Positions 25,677-31,085 of a stretch of 43,132 nt of DNA are shown here, in pieces (position 1 is the first letter of the stretch; each line of letters starts with the position of its first letter). The stretch spans positions 1 through 43,132 of the IMG/VR virus record IMGVR_UViG_3300032086_000116, one strand, 5' to 3'. Origin of the DNA: a virus. The position numbers and the translations under genes are program-made. The notes beneath the pieces were generated by a model. The model did not search any database and had not been told where the DNA came from. It was given only the letters and a program-made list of their open reading frames with translations.

Positions 25677-26047
25677 AATGGTTGATTACAGTTTTGTTAA
25701 GCTTACCTTGTCTCGCTGAATGGCAAGACTGGAACACAACTGATAAATTATTATTTAAAACAAAAATAGTTTTAGATATTATAGATGTTGGGCAAACTTA
25801 TAATGTTATTACCTGCCAAAATACAAACGAATATTGTAGATATTATGAAGTAAATCCTTTGTTTGGAAGCACTCCTGATATAGAAGATATTATTGCTGCA
25901 AAAATTGTTGGTAATTTTTTTATTTATAAAATACTGGATAAAGTACCAGCTGCTAGGCGAAAGGGACTATTACTTGCAAATACCATGGAGTTAGTTGTTA
26001 TTTATCATAATCATAACATTGGACTAGAATTTAAAATAAATTTATAA
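25673..26047 (+). CDS. signal-peptide membrane protein, 124 aa
   Basis: Residues 1-15 (MKWLITVLLSLPCLA) look like a cleavable signal peptide. The mature part has the motifs DVGQTYNVI, YYEVNPLFGS and a hydrophobic stretch near 72-86, and resembles small membrane proteins with a D...QT / E.NPL.G pattern (DUF5658-like, low certainty). Placed in the lysis block by ATGA overlap at 25673, but no lysis activity can be claimed. Confidence 0.7.
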   Translation: MKWLITVLLSLPCLAEWQDWNTTDKLLFKTKIVLDIIDVGQTYNVITCQNTNEYCRYYEVNPLFGSTPDIEDIIAAKIVGNFFIYKILDKVPAARRKGLLLANTMELVVIYHNHNIGLEFKINL

Positions 26048-26397
26048 TGAATGAATTTGTAAGTCTTATTAATGAAGTAGGCTTTCCCATTGCAGCAGCT
26101 CTAGGATTAGGGCTTTTTATTTGGAAGCTGATTAATCGTATCATTGATGGTATGGAGACCAAGCTTGAAACATTGGACGATAAAGTTCAGACTGCGTTAG
26201 ATACTATGGAAGAAAGAGTATCTACTAAGTTAGACAGTCAGTACGGTATTATCGTTAGTTTGATTGATAGAGTGAGAGCTATGGATAATCAAAGTATAAG
26301 ACAAGACGTACTTTTAAAAACTTTACTGGGCGTTCCCAACTTAATAGACCTTGAGAAGATTGCAAAAGCAGAAAGAGATGATCAAAGAAAAGACTAA
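26047..26397 (+). CDS. YvrJ-like anchored coiled-coil protein, 116 aa
   Basis: The N-terminus (VSLINEVGFPIAAALGLGLF) matches the pattern of YvrJ-family short membrane proteins, with one membrane segment at about 12-28. Residues 33-75 form a coiled coil with repeated Glu/Leu/Asp heptads. The charged C-terminus overlaps the csgF start by 20 bases. The family has no established function. An inner-membrane coil next to holin genes could be spanin-like or a holin partner, which is inference. Confidence 0.75.
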   Translation: MNEFVSLINEVGFPIAAALGLGLFIWKLINRIIDGMETKLETLDDKVQTALDTMEERVSTKLDSQYGIIVSLIDRVRAMDNQSIRQDVLLKTLLGVPNLIDLEKIAKAERDDQRKD

Positions 26398-26851
26398 TTG
26401 GAACTTAGTAATCTGTAGTTTAATATTGGTATTCAGTATTTTTTTTACTATGTTTGTAACTGCTGACGAGATTACACACAAGTTTAAGAGTCCATCGTTT
26501 AGTGGCATCAATACCTCTAGTCATTACTTGACCATAGAGAACCAAGAGTTTAACAGAAAGGCTGCAATCAAAGCAGAGATAAAAGCTTACCAAGAAGAAC
26601 TAGAAAGAGAGGCAAACAACACCACACTTGCAAGATTTATACGTAACTTAGAATCAAGAATCTATGCACAGCTTTCACGACAGTTAGTAGAAAACTTGTT
26701 TGGAGAAACACCAAGCAGCAGTGGTTTTCTAGAACTAGAAGGTAACAGTATAGAGTATAGTGTTGATGGAGATTTTATAACTTTAAAGATAACAGATGCT
26801 GAAGGAAATGAAACGATTATTACTTTGCCTATCGGCAGTTTTACTTTCTAG
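26378..26851 (+). CDS. csgF: CsgF-like curli assembly factor
   Basis: In bacteria, CsgF is secreted through CsgG, caps the pore and helps attach curlin. The 157-residue product starts at ATG 26378 with a hydrophobic signal-like segment (9-28). The mature start has FKSPSFSG (36-43), corresponding to the conserved F-x-N-P-x-F-G motif that inserts in the CsgG barrel. A later IRNLESRIYAQLSRQLVENL helix and a C-terminal SVDGDFITLKITDAEGNETI strand pair also follow the CsgF pattern. It overlaps csgG by 56 bases. A TTG at 26351 could add 9 residues but lacks support. Confidence 0.85.
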   Translation: MIKEKTNWNLVICSLILVFSIFFTMFVTADEITHKFKSPSFSGINTSSHYLTIENQEFNRKAAIKAEIKAYQEELEREANNTTLARFIRNLESRIYAQLSRQLVENLFGETPSSSGFLELEGNSIEYSVDGDFITLKITDAEGNETIITLPIGSFTF

Positions 26852-27617
26852 TTGTGCCACATGGCATTACGATGAGCTTTTAGAAAACGGAGGTATCGCA
26901 GATATTCGTCTGCAAGGTACCTCAATTCTAGATTTACAATCAGAAACTTTAAAAAACTTACCAGCTGCACAAGTCAAACCAGTAGTTGCAATTTATAAAG
27001 ACAGCTTTCAGGACTTGACAGGGCAGAGGAAAAGTAATAGTCAATTCGCACTGTTTAGTACAGCAGTGAGCCAAGCTCCAGAAGCGTTGGTCATTCGTGC
27101 TTTTAAACACGCAGCGAATGGGCAGTTCTTTAGAGTGGTTGAACGAGTAGGGTTAGATAGTCTGACAAAAGAAAGACAGATTATTAGGTCGACTCGGGAA
27201 GACTTTAATGAAGAACAAAAACTTAAGCCATTACTTTTTGCAGGAGTATTGGTTCAAGGCGGTGTGATAAGTTATGACACCAATTTAAAGTCAGGCGGTA
27301 ACGGTGCTAGATATTTAGGCATAGGTGCTAGTCGTCAATACAGAGAAGATACTGTCACTATATCCATGCGATTAGTATCTATCTCTACAGGGGAAGTATT
27401 GATGGAAGTATTGGTTGCTAAAACTATTTTATCTATCGGCATATCGCAAGACTTGTTCCGTTTTATTGAAGCAGGTTCAGAACTTGTAGAGATAGAAAGC
27501 GGAGCAGCACAAAACGAAAGCGTGTCTATAGCTTTGCAAAAGGCAATAGAGACAGGGGTATTACAAATAATTGAAACAGGAATCGAGAGGGGATACTGGA
27601 AATATGAAACAAATTAA
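26796..27617 (+). CDS. csgG: CsgG curli secretion channel lipoprotein
   Basis: CsgG forms a nonameric outer-membrane channel for curli subunits. A lipoprotein signal ends in LSSC (Cys20). The core carries strong family signatures: VVAIYK and TGQRK (63-79), LTKERQIIRSTRE (123-135), SYDTNLKSGGNGARYLGIGA (159-178), SISTGEVL (195-202), SKTI-like AKTI (208-211), FRFIEA (221-226) and AIETGV (250-255). The constriction region (about 80-91) reads SNSQFALFSTAV, one residue longer than in E. coli and without its Tyr/Asn pair, while Phe87 is kept. It stops shortly after the core, without the longer C-terminal tail. ATG 26808 is an alternative start. Confidence 0.95.
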   Translation: MLKEMKRLLLCLSAVLLSSCATWHYDELLENGGIADIRLQGTSILDLQSETLKNLPAAQVKPVVAIYKDSFQDLTGQRKSNSQFALFSTAVSQAPEALVIRAFKHAANGQFFRVVERVGLDSLTKERQIIRSTREDFNEEQKLKPLLFAGVLVQGGVISYDTNLKSGGNGARYLGIGASRQYREDTVTISMRLVSISTGEVLMEVLVAKTILSIGISQDLFRFIEAGSELVEIESGAAQNESVSIALQKAIETGVLQIIETGIERGYWKYETN

Positions 27618-28305
27618 ATTACTTTTATTATTACCAATGTTGGCGTTGGCTGATAATGAAATCTATGTAAATCAATCCGGTGCTACTGCGAACATAGACT
27701 TAGAACAGCTAGGTTCAAGTAACATTATTGGTGGACTAGATGCAGTGTCAGGAACTATGACAGCGTTGGACTTAGACGGAGCAACACTAACTTTAGATAT
27801 CAATCAGATTGGAGACTTTAACAAGTTTCTAGGTGATATGTGGGCTGATACATTAACAGGTTTTTTTGAGTTTGATGGAGATAGCAACGAGTTTGAAATA
27901 CAAGTTGACCCTACAAATACTTATGGTGCTGATAGCAGTGACCTCAACGTAGATGTTACAGGTTCATCAAATACATTTGAATTAAACGTAGCTACAGCAG
28001 ACTTGGCAAGTGCTTTAGACCTTGACTGGACCATTAACGGTAGCAGCAACTCATTGACATTTGATATTGATTATGATTCAGCAACTAACTACGTCAACAT
28101 AGATGGAGACAGCAACACTGTAACGTTTGATGGAGACGGATATGCTAACGGATATTTTTATTTAGACCAAGACGGAAACTCTAGAACATTTAATATACAA
28201 CAACAAAGTACATTGGCAAGTGACTGGCTTAAGCTTGAAACAACTGGCAATGGTGGTACTGTTTGTGTCATTCAAAATGACTCAGGCACCACTACAAGCT
28301 GCTGA
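27604..28305 (+). CDS. secreted curlin-repeat protein
   Basis: A 233-residue protein starting at ATG 27604, overlapping csgG by 14 bases. Signal peptide MKQIKLLLLLPMLALA with cleavage near 16. The mature protein is acidic and made of strand-turn-strand repeats with a [D/S]-x-N turn: IYVNQSGATANIDLEQLGSS (20-39) is close to the curlin consensus, and INQIGDFN (66-73), DGDSNEFEIQV (91-101), TGSSNTFELNV (119-129), NGSSNSLTFDI (145-155) and DGDSNTVTFDG (167-177) follow at about 21-28-residue spacing. Two Cys (221, 233) near the end are unusual for curlins. Probably the CsgG substrate; amyloid formation is inferred. Confidence 0.8.
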   Translation: MKQIKLLLLLPMLALADNEIYVNQSGATANIDLEQLGSSNIIGGLDAVSGTMTALDLDGATLTLDINQIGDFNKFLGDMWADTLTGFFEFDGDSNEFEIQVDPTNTYGADSSDLNVDVTGSSNTFELNVATADLASALDLDWTINGSSNSLTFDIDYDSATNYVNIDGDSNTVTFDGDGYANGYFYLDQDGNSRTFNIQQQSTLASDWLKLETTGNGGTVCVIQNDSGTTTSC

Positions 28306-29326
28306 TATAGGTTCGATAACCGAAGTCAAAGGAGCAGGACAAGTTGTTCGTGACGATACGTTCCCGGCTGCATTACAGTTTGGTATAGAGAGTTACGATA
28401 ACGTCAAGACAGCAAACGGTAGGGTTGGAATTACCTTTCTTGACGATAGTAAAGTTAGACTAACAGAACACTCAGAGCTTATTATAGATGAGTTTATTTA
28501 TGACCCCAACCCCTCGAAGTCGAAAATGGCATTGCAGTTTGCTAGTGGTACTGCAAGATTCATCACTGGCAAACTTGCAACCATTGATAAAGAGAACATA
28601 TCTATAAAGACTCCAAGTGCCACTATAGGAATACGTGGTACAGATTTTACAGTTACTGTAGATGAACTTGGAAGAAGCTTGGTAATATTGTTACCGGATG
28701 AATTTGGTAACGCTAGTGGTGAGATAGTTGTCAACACTGCTATAGGACAGGCAGTATTGAATCAGCCTTACCAAGCTACCAGTGTATCGGTCTTTGAAAG
28801 TAAGCCAAGTAAGCCGGTTATCTTAGACATTACACTGGAGCTTATTGATAACATGTTGATTGTGCAACCTCCTGAACAGGTTGTAACAGAAACAGAAAAT
28901 GTTACAGAGCAGAAGAAGAGTATACTGGACGTAGACTTTTTAGAGTTTGATGAACTTGAACAAGACTATCTAGCAGAAGACAATTTAGAATTTAATGAGC
29001 TAGATATTAATTATCTTGATGTTAATTTTTTAGAAGACTTACTTGACATCATAGAAGAAGTAGACCAGCTGGAAAGTGAACAGCTTGGTCAAGTCTCAGA
29101 AACTGATATCAAAGGCACAGAGTTTGGCTTTGATGGTGAAACACAAATAAATACATTTATAACCGATGGAATGCTAACCGTTCTTAGAAGTGTACAAGAT
29201 ACGGTAAGACTAGAGATAGATAGCTCCGGTTCTTACACTGTTCTTTTAGTACAAGACGGAAAGAGTACACAGATTGTTATCAACGGTGGTAGTTCATCTA
29301 CAATTAAAATTAAACAGAGCAGCTAA
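28220..29326 (+). CDS. secreted FecR-domain protein with acidic repeats
   Basis: A 368-residue product from a GTG at 28220, which provides a signal peptide (Lys7, hydrophobic 9-18, cleavage near QAA-D); ATGs at 28250 and 28277 would shorten or remove it. A FecR domain spans about 30-165, with NVKTANGRVGITFLDDSKVR and TPSATIGIRGTDF (131-143). A Asp/Glu/Leu/Asn-rich repeat region (about 235-285) follows, then a second degenerate FecR-like piece (TDIKGTEF, 295-302) and a beta-rich end. The gene overlaps the curlin gene by 86 bases in another frame. FecR domains are periplasmic sensing or ligand modules. A link to the following CHASE2 cyclase is suggested by adjacency. Confidence 0.85.
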   Translation: MTGLSLKQLAMVVLFVSFKMTQAPLQAADIGSITEVKGAGQVVRDDTFPAALQFGIESYDNVKTANGRVGITFLDDSKVRLTEHSELIIDEFIYDPNPSKSKMALQFASGTARFITGKLATIDKENISIKTPSATIGIRGTDFTVTVDELGRSLVILLPDEFGNASGEIVVNTAIGQAVLNQPYQATSVSVFESKPSKPVILDITLELIDNMLIVQPPEQVVTETENVTEQKKSILDVDFLEFDELEQDYLAEDNLEFNELDINYLDVNFLEDLLDIIEEVDQLESEQLGQVSETDIKGTEFGFDGETQINTFITDGMLTVLRSVQDTVRLEIDSSGSYTVLLVQDGKSTQIVINGGSSSTIKIKQSS

Positions 29327-31074
29327 TGAAATGGGCAACACTTCTTATCGGCATCCTTACGCTACCCTTGTTGTTCAATGCTGTACCTTTAGAAATATTA
29401 CGACTTAAAACATTTGACACGTTTGTCAAGACTCCTGAACCTACAGGATATTTTTCTATTCTTAATATCACAGAAGAAGATATAGATAAAGAAGGTGGTT
29501 ATCCTTTACCACGTCAAACACTTGCAAAGATTCACAACACTTTACTAGAGAACGGTGCCCTAGGCGTTGGCTGGGTTGTATTGTTTCCACATCCTGACAG
29601 ACTAGGTGGAGACACAGAGTTTGCACAAGCTTTACAAAGTTCTCCAAGTGTCATAGCAATGCCTGAAGTTCCCAATAATTTATATCCTGAAACACACGGA
29701 ACTGTCATACTCGGAGAAGATGTCATACTTCCACAGGCACAAGGTTTCTTAAATAATATACCAATACTCAAGCAGTCAGCTACTCAAGGTGCAGTCTCTG
29801 TTCCTGTTGACGTTGATAATTTGGTAAGACAAATTCCTTTACTTCAACAAATTCCTGATGGGTGGGTAGCCTCATTCGGTACTCAAGTCTTAAAAATTTT
29901 AGGAGGTGGTTCAACGTATCAAATTAAAACAAACATAAACGGTATTGAACAGATACGAGTACGTGGGCTACCTCCCATTGCTACAGATAGTCTTGGTCGT
30001 AAGTGGATATCTTGGGTGGATACACCTGAGACTACGTTACAAGAGCTTGATGTGGCTGGTAAGTTTGTGTTCGTAGGTTTTACAGCTAAAGGAATTATGC
30101 AACAAGTTGCAACTCCAAAAGGTTTGTTAGAGCCTCATAAAATTCAAGCAGCACTAGCAGAAAGTATCCTGTTAGATACACCAAAAATACCTGACTATAG
30201 ATTGTTTGTAGAACTATTAATATTATGCCTCTCTGGTCTCGCTGTAGCCTCTGTAATCAACGCTTTTGGTATCACCTGGGGATTGGTATTGGCAGGAGTT
30301 TCAATGGCTTCTGTGGCTTATGGTGGATATGCTTTAATTCAAGCAAATATTCTTATAGATGTGACATGGTCATTACTATCTATGTTAGTTGTATCTACTC
30401 AGCAATTCTATTTAAACTTTAGAAAGCAGTACAAGCTTAGACAACAGATTAAGAAACAATTTGAACACTATCTTGACCCACGACAAGTCAAACAACTCCA
30501 GAAACATCCAGAGCTTTTGAAGTTAGGAGGAGTTCGTAGAAGATGTACTCTTTTATTTACAGACGTTAGAGGCTTTACAAGTTTGTCAGAACGTTTAGAG
30601 CCTGAACAAGTTACAGAGATTATGAACAAAGCATTGACGATTCAATCGGATGCTGTAAAGAAACATGGTGGAATGGTAGATAAATATATTGGTGATGCTA
30701 TGATGGCTATCTTCAATGCACCTATAGATCAAGAAGAACACGAAGAGAAAGCTGTGTTAGCTGCATTAGATATCATGCGTGGGATGAACGAAGCAGACAT
30801 TGGGGTAACGATTGGTATAGGAGTCAACACCGGAGATGCAGTCGTAGGAAACATGGGAAGTGAGACAAGGTTTGATTACACTGCGATAGGTGATGCAGTA
30901 AACCTTGCAGCTAGGTTAGAGAGTTCAACTAAAGAAGTTGGACAAGACTTAGTAATCGGGCATGAGACTGCCAAGAATATTACTCTACCTCTGATAGAGC
31001 TTGAACCTATCTTTGTAAAGGGAAAAGAAAAACCTGTAAAAATATTTACTATAAGTCTTGACAAATTGCTGTAG
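29326..31074 (+). CDS. CHASE2-domain class III adenylate cyclase
   Basis: Predicted inner-membrane sensor that makes cAMP. Order: N-terminal membrane segment (about 3-20), periplasmic CHASE2 domain (about 25-285), three membrane segments (about 293-313, 315-338, 343-365), then a cytoplasmic cyclase domain (about 400-580). Metal ligands are Asp413 (FTDVRGFT) and Asp457 (KYIGDAMM). Lys453 and Thr519 occupy the adenine-specifying positions (a Lys/Thr pair known from some bacterial enzymes), and Asn526 and Arg530 are the transition-state residues. All key residues are present, so the enzyme should be active. It starts in a TAATG overlap with the FecR gene. A promoter for hsp20 lies in its last codons. 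Confidence 0.93.
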   Translation: MKWATLLIGILTLPLLFNAVPLEILRLKTFDTFVKTPEPTGYFSILNITEEDIDKEGGYPLPRQTLAKIHNTLLENGALGVGWVVLFPHPDRLGGDTEFAQALQSSPSVIAMPEVPNNLYPETHGTVILGEDVILPQAQGFLNNIPILKQSATQGAVSVPVDVDNLVRQIPLLQQIPDGWVASFGTQVLKILGGGSTYQIKTNINGIEQIRVRGLPPIATDSLGRKWISWVDTPETTLQELDVAGKFVFVGFTAKGIMQQVATPKGLLEPHKIQAALAESILLDTPKIPDYRLFVELLILCLSGLAVASVINAFGITWGLVLAGVSMASVAYGGYALIQANILIDVTWSLLSMLVVSTQQFYLNFRKQYKLRQQIKKQFEHYLDPRQVKQLQKHPELLKLGGVRRRCTLLFTDVRGFTSLSERLEPEQVTEIMNKALTIQSDAVKKHGGMVDKYIGDAMMAIFNAPIDQEEHEEKAVLAALDIMRGMNEADIGVTIGIGVNTGDAVVGNMGSETRFDYTAIGDAVNLAARLESSTKEVGQDLVIGHETAKNITLPLIELEPIFVKGKEKPVKIFTISLDKLL

Positions 31075-31085
31075 GACATTATAAT
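31058..31085 (+). promoter_or_regulatory. consensus sigma70 promoter for hsp20
   Basis: TTGACA at 31058-31063, 16-bp spacer, TATAAT at 31080-31085; the -35 lies in the final codons of the cyclase gene. The expected start is near 31092, immediately before the hairpin at 31093. It would let hsp20 be transcribed independently of the late operon by the vegetative sigma factor. Confidence 0.75.

Follow-up and report, generated by a model that had tools for sequence, protein, structure and literature searches.

Sequence comparisons suggest that a marine phage represented in IMG/VR probably carries a working, phage-encoded curli-type (type VIII) secretion unit that would export a surface coat. The unit resides in record IMGVR_UViG_3300032086_000116, which was analyzed in full (positions 1-43,132; this entire stretch of 43,132 nucleotides is hereafter called the window). 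Five overlapping genes on the plus strand, spanning window positions 26378-31074, encode CsgF, CsgG, a curlin-like protein, a FecR-domain protein, and an adenylate cyclase. The first four are always found together in the relatives described below and appear to be gained and lost jointly, and all cassette genes are under purifying selection (median dN/dS of 0.13-0.18 across the five genes, and 0.07 for nrdB). Thus, the proposal made in a first-pass annotation of this DNA, that the phage encodes a curli-type pore together with its own substrate, holds up well. We consider the statement that this unit works like a type VIII secretion system (T8SS) to be stronger than the statement that it is a T8SS member, because the curlin assignment is weak and CsgE is missing.

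The same first-pass annotation presented the full gene set as previously unknown, which is incorrect. Cassettes of this kind have been reported in pelagimyophages, in phage Melnitz, and in nine HTVC023P-type podophages (Zaragoza-Solas, 2020, PMC7029224; Buchholz et al., 2022, PMC9004378; PMC9599517), they are annotated in Pelagibacter phage HTVC008M and Methylophilales phage Melnitz, and the gene order csgF, csgG, csgA/B, fecR, adenylate cyclase has been described (Wittmers et al., 2022; PMC9599517). What is new here is the occurrence of the cassette in another phage lineage, the boundaries of a four-gene core, the separate behavior of the cyclase, exchange between lineages, and the correction of two gene labels. 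The phage curli module therefore reaches beyond the two phage groups from which it had been reported, as a sharply bounded, exchangeable core of four genes plus an extra cyclase. A list of auxiliary genes thereby becomes a testable minimal set, for which near-isogenic phages with filled and empty sites suggest natural controls.

Components of the cassette

The gene coordinates in the first-pass annotation are confirmed, and the CsgF, CsgG, FecR, CHASE2, and cyclase identities are strongly backed by profile matches that exceed Pfam's curated cut-offs. The csgG gene (26808-27617, plus strand) encodes an outer-membrane channel lipoprotein (PF03783, E=3.3e-49; lipobox LLSSC), and residues 45-266 of its product align with E. 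coli CsgG structures (E=8e-45). Upstream, csgF (26378-26851, plus strand) encodes an exported CsgF protein (PF10614, E=1.2e-15). The stretch following its signal peptide (EITHKFKSPSFSG) resembles the N-terminal part of E. coli CsgF that inserts into the channel, and aligns weakly with the E. coli CsgF chain 6l7a_J. Four of the five cassette proteins match PHROGs families of unknown function (phrog_35372, 20175, 37870, and 35576), so related proteins were already present in phage databases. A 1.5-kb record named as a 'Salmonella phage' (OR851715.1) also carries a 43% match to CsgG, which is probably a piece of host DNA and not a true phage gene.

The curlin-like gene (27604-28305, plus strand) encodes the putative secreted substrate, and its assignment is the weakest of the five. 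Whereas the CsgF call of the first-pass annotation is borne out by its profile, the curlin call is backed instead by repeats, orthology, and a structural model. Specifically, a signal peptide precedes degenerate G-x-x-N repeats, and repeats of the G[DSNT]xN type occur six times compared with 0.46 expected in shuffled sequences (P<=1e-4). The protein can be aligned with orthologs annotated as curlins in two cultured phages, HTVC008M (32%) and Melnitz, and the Melnitz ortholog passes the PF07012 cut-off. Against the CsgB model NF007506 the window protein reaches an E value of only 0.007. A profile built from five phage curlins matches the solved curlin 8c50 at 6e-8, but this match is probably driven by the myophage members because a podophage-only profile gave no match to 8c50. 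An AlphaFold model predicts a beta-solenoid (predicted local distance difference test score, pLDDT, of 79.5), and a pair of cysteines near the C-terminus is invariant in 20 podophage homologs. Judged from these sequence and model features, we take the protein to be a degenerate curlin-like substrate with a weak curlin profile. The second curlin of HTVC008M (L002, 5639-6964) has a PA14 domain ahead of its curlin repeats, which is possibly a carbohydrate-binding head on a fiber subunit.

The fecR gene begins at 28220 (GTG) or 28250 (ATG) and ends at 29326 on the plus strand (PF04773, E=2e-11). Its product has an N-terminal signal peptide, the PF04773 beta domain as the sole domain found, and a mature portion without a transmembrane (TM) segment. 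The signal peptide is encoded out of frame across the conserved 3′ end of the curlin gene (28220-28305), and this overlap is kept in relatives. An iron-signaling FecR regulator has a cytoplasmic anti-sigma domain, a TM segment, and a periplasmic C-terminal domain, an arrangement that the phage protein does not have. The published 'iron-dependent regulator' label for phage FecR looks wrong, because a signal peptide and PF04773 alone point to a secreted protein. The C-terminal sequence of these FecR proteins, VNGGGxSxITIxQ, is similar to that of phage curlins (in HTVC008M, GDNHDIDIIQRD); this likeness hints that FecR may be an exported partner in the fiber.

Gain, loss and exchange of a four-gene unit

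A CsgG scan of IMG/VR yielded at least 556 confirmed relatives, and co-conservation was counted in the best 80 of these, using contigs with room for the gene in question. Because these 80 lie nearest to the query, the counts describe that branch. In them, csgF is present in 72/72 contigs, the curlin gene in 68/68, and fecR in 59/59. The gene set is not scattered, an outcome that would have counted against the first-pass annotation by its own terms. The cyclase is present in 34 of 42 contigs, with 31 copies on the same strand and three on the opposite strand. FecR and the cyclase had been viewed as a cAMP signaling pair, an idea that does not fit with fecR being kept in every case while the cyclase is sometimes absent and in places inverted.

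The boundaries of the unit are best seen by comparing filled and empty sites. Contig L103, whose TerL is 58% identical to that of HTVC027P (HTVC023P-like), carries csgF-csgG-curlin-fecR between YvrJ-like and holin-like genes. Contigs L114 and L102 are 92-96% identical to L103 on either side of this position and have approximately 150 bases in place of the cassette, and in contig L158 the YvrJ-like and holin-like genes are just six bases apart. The contrast between L103 and these three empty sites indicates that the four genes are gained or lost as one unit. The cyclase, for its part, is gained or lost alone, as seen with L021 versus L027 (flanks 87% and 93% identical) and L038 versus L036 (flanks 86% and 93%). 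From this separate coming and going, it follows that fecR is part of the curli unit and not of the cyclase's. Among Alphaproteobacteria, a FecR-domain gene lies within approximately 1.5 kb of a CHASE2 cyclase gene in 5 of 32 loci examined, whereas the phage fecR stays with the curli genes even when the cyclase is absent. The empty sites of L114 (3127-3273) and L102 (3084-3229) contain a palindrome-bearing unit (AAAATGACATTTTGTCAGTTTTT) repeated four times in tandem, an operator-like arrangement.

A tree of 89 CsgG sequences places the phage proteins in one group against four Rhizobiales sequences. Within this group, HTVC023P-like members occur in several places, some of them among HTVC103P-like members, and well-supported branches require the lineage label to change at least three times. 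These labels were assigned from gene order alone for L049, L055, and L108, from TerL for L103 and L041, and from the polymerase for L075; L103 and L108 form long branches whose placement is unsure. On the basis of this tree, we conclude that the cassette is exchanged between podophage lineages. A bacterial operon containing fecR and the cyclase was considered as a source, and none was found next to the seven csgG loci listed in a genome scan, which is a weak test. Around the nearest Rhizobiales csgG loci listed, neither fecR nor the cyclase has a match within 10 kb.

The window phage itself is assigned by sequence identity to the HTVC103P/HMO-2011-like lineage. Its TerL is 65-66% identical, and its polymerase 51-52% identical, to those of Pelagibacter phages HTVC103P, HTVC104P, and HTVC115P. 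Membership in the HTVC023P-type group was rejected, given that the window TerL has no significant similarity to that of HTVC027P, a phage of this type, and that the polymerases are distant (24% identity). In the open-access literature searched, no paper mentions HMO-2011 together with curli, and the HTVC103P group goes unnamed in the text of PMC9599517; within this literature, the occurrence in this lineage appears to be unreported. Genomes of the HTVC103P type have G+C contents of 30.8-34.0%, and those of a related host-unknown group 31.9-44.4% (PMC8528129). Segments of the window are mostly at 33-40%, which better fits the latter group, and so the host may be other than SAR11. The genome is probably incomplete because it measures 43 kb, its ends are classed as linear in IMG/VR, and fuller relatives reach 53-57 kb.

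Compared with the T8SS module of HTVC023P-type phages and pelagimyophages (PMC9599517), the anatomy is largely the same: one or more small upstream genes called histidine kinases, then csgF-csgG-csgA/B-like-fecR, an optional second curlin gene, and the cyclase, with no CsgE or CsgD. The window has csgF-csgG-csgA/B-fecR in this conserved order along with the optional cyclase. It differs from the HTVC023P-type module in having a single curlin gene, in a phage with an unrelated TerL and a distant polymerase. The location differs as well, since the window cassette closes the late operon, beside hsp20 and nrd genes, whereas the HTVC023P-type cassette stands between YvrJ-like and holin-like genes. 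HTVC008M and Melnitz share the order csgF-csgG-curlin-fecR-...-cyclase, with protein identities of approximately 25-45%, but these are myophages in which the curlin and YvrJ-like genes each number two. Relative to the curli systems (T8SS) of E. coli and Alphaproteobacteria, the phage unit shares the CsgG and CsgF families, a lipoprotein channel, and a predicted exported repeat protein, but it has no CsgE, an added FecR-domain protein, and degenerate curlin repeats.

Proposed export of a surface coat and competing explanations

How might such a unit operate? Pores of CsgG and CsgF would be made without a CsgE gate late in infection, from the transcription unit of the structural and lysis genes. 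Late expression is expected because the cassette is on the same strand as these genes and 3′ of them. CsgF would plug into the outer-membrane CsgG channel, and the curlin-like protein, exported by the Sec pathway, would pass through this pore to the cell surface and form an amyloid-like coat. The FecR-domain protein, likewise exported by Sec, perhaps serves as an anchor or minor subunit of the fiber. The cyclase would use its CHASE2 domain to monitor the envelope and would elevate cAMP levels, as an add-on rather than as part of the exporter. Neighboring cells might then stick to the dying cell, such that released virions reach hosts in dilute seawater. If cells infected by these phages indeed acquire a coat, then phages would be making streamlined planktonic bacteria amyloid-coated and sticky. 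Clumping as the benefit to the phage is a guess, albeit the most likely use, with the exclusion of rivals almost as probable. A fuller proposal is that unrelated podophage lineages trade the mobile unit csgF-csgG-curlin-fecR as a module for amyloid export, that FecR is a second fiber component (an anchor or nucleator replacing CsgB) rather than a regulator, and that the coat clumps cells around the lysing cell; we consider this proposal doubtful in its entirety.

Several observations weigh against a coat-exporting unit. The window has no match to CsgE (PF10627), a protein that strongly boosts secretion in E. coli (PMC7029224). The curlin-like protein has no match to PF07012, the Pfam curlin family, and a Foldseek search of the PDB with its model returned no significant fold match. 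Structure prediction for FecR reaches a pLDDT of only 36, which makes its position in the fiber a guess. Moreover, cultures infected with Melnitz showed no clumping in cytograms or by transmission electron microscopy (PMC9004378). Regarding CsgE, this protein has been described as non-essential for curli (PMC7029224), and the published phage modules also lack it yet are filed as T8SS (PMC9599517); we therefore treat CsgE as non-defining for type VIII (curli) membership.

Sibling capture, defense against superinfection, uptake, and lysis control have all been proposed earlier for these modules (PMC9599517, PMC7029224, PMC9004378), so that the roles suggested in the first-pass annotation (superinfection exclusion, clumping, and lysis control) coincide with published proposals. 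A coat that hides the receptors of the infected cell from rival phages would use the same anatomy as the exporter favored here, and optional, exchanged modules are typical for functions of this type; the unit is traded among phage lineages that may compete. However, the late-operon position suggests expression after most of the superinfection risk has passed, and we judge this explanation as a whole to be unlikely, if still the strongest of the rivals. Somewhat less probable is a repurposed lysis or leakage pore, as proposed for Melnitz by Buchholz et al. (2022; PMC9004378), in which a gated CsgG-CsgF pore in the outer membrane times or eases lysis. Consistent with this possibility, structural and lysis genes lie 5′ of the cassette in 46 of 48 podophage contigs with room among the best 80, the cassette is directly 3′ of a holin-like YvrJ gene, and the CsgE gate was not found in the window. 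Yet the cassette-free phages with flanks 92-96% identical retain the adjacent YvrJ- and holin-like genes, indicating that the cassette is not needed for lysis. Furthermore, the HTVC008M and Melnitz cassettes are neighbors of ssb, and no lysis gene is annotated in the part of these records that was read; a bare pore has no need for the curlin and fecR genes that are always retained.

An ungated CsgG channel could instead admit larger nutrients to the periplasm, with FecR and the cyclase as regulators (PMC7029224, PMC9599517). The channel and the lack of a CsgE gate fit with this view, but it leaves the obligate CsgF and curlin proteins unexplained, and FecR is secreted and lacks the cytoplasmic domain and TM segment of a regulator. 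In addition, no FecI- or FecA-like gene turned up in the window, where no search aimed at these genes was made. We regard an uptake function as improbable. The constant presence of a substrate favors export over a bare pore, and export of a coat remains our preferred explanation.

Cyclase, upstream gene and genomic setting

The cyclase gene (29326-31074, plus strand; PF05226, 1.5e-29; PF00211, 6.7e-20) is an optional neighbor of the cassette. Its product has an N-terminal TM segment, a CHASE2 domain, further TM segments, and a cyclase domain. As stated in the first-pass annotation, the class III catalytic set is complete, comprising the two metal-binding aspartates, the Lys/Thr purine pair, and the Asn/Arg pair (D413, D457, K453, T519, N526, and R530). 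Across 22 viral cyclases, five of these six positions show little or no variation, and the sixth is Thr or Ser in all but one. The Melnitz cyclase (L003, 6826-8874) carries Ser instead of the transition-state Asn and, judging from this substitution, may be inactive. In L047, L050, L052, L065, L067, L072, and L077, the cyclase gene, in some cases together with hsp20, has been flipped to the nrd operon strand but still adjoins fecR, such that the timing of cyclase expression probably differs between phages.

A conserved gene overlooked by the first-pass annotation (26047-26397, plus strand) overlaps csgF and encodes a YvrJ/holin-like protein of 116 amino acids with one N-terminal TM segment, a coiled coil, and a conserved C-terminus (...DDQRKD). 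It is directly 5′ of csgF in 61/61 contigs with room. We rejected it as an exclusive sixth cassette gene, since it occurs without csgF in 12 of 74 loci. According to Wittmers et al. (2022; PMC9599517), a histidine kinase, or a pair of them, always comes before the module. At this place, the window, HTVC008M, and Melnitz have one or more genes for YvrJ-like proteins of 92-116 amino acids with one TM segment and a coiled coil, and no kinase domain is present in any of 19 YvrJ-like relatives. Their location, together with the presence of two of them in HTVC008M, leads us to infer that these genes are the published kinases; the 'histidine kinase' label looks wrong and seems to denote a small YvrJ-like protein.

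The cassette is flanked by lysozyme and holin-like genes on its 5′ side and by hsp20 on its 3′ side, which agrees with the site between lysis genes and hsp20 named in the first-pass annotation. In the stretch compared from HTVC103P and HTVC115P, there is no homolog of the cassette, the YvrJ-like gene, or the holin-like gene, and hsp20 is directly 3′ of a large virion protein gene. A perfect sigma-70 consensus (TTGACA-16-TATAAT, 12/12) at window positions 31058-31085, at the 3′ end of the cyclase gene and just 5′ of hsp20, suggests that hsp20 may have its own promoter. Finally, the pelagiphages HTVC115P (L092, 19011-19460) and HTVC026P (L197, 21400-21813) carry annotated toxin-activating lysine acyltransferase genes among their structural or tail genes.

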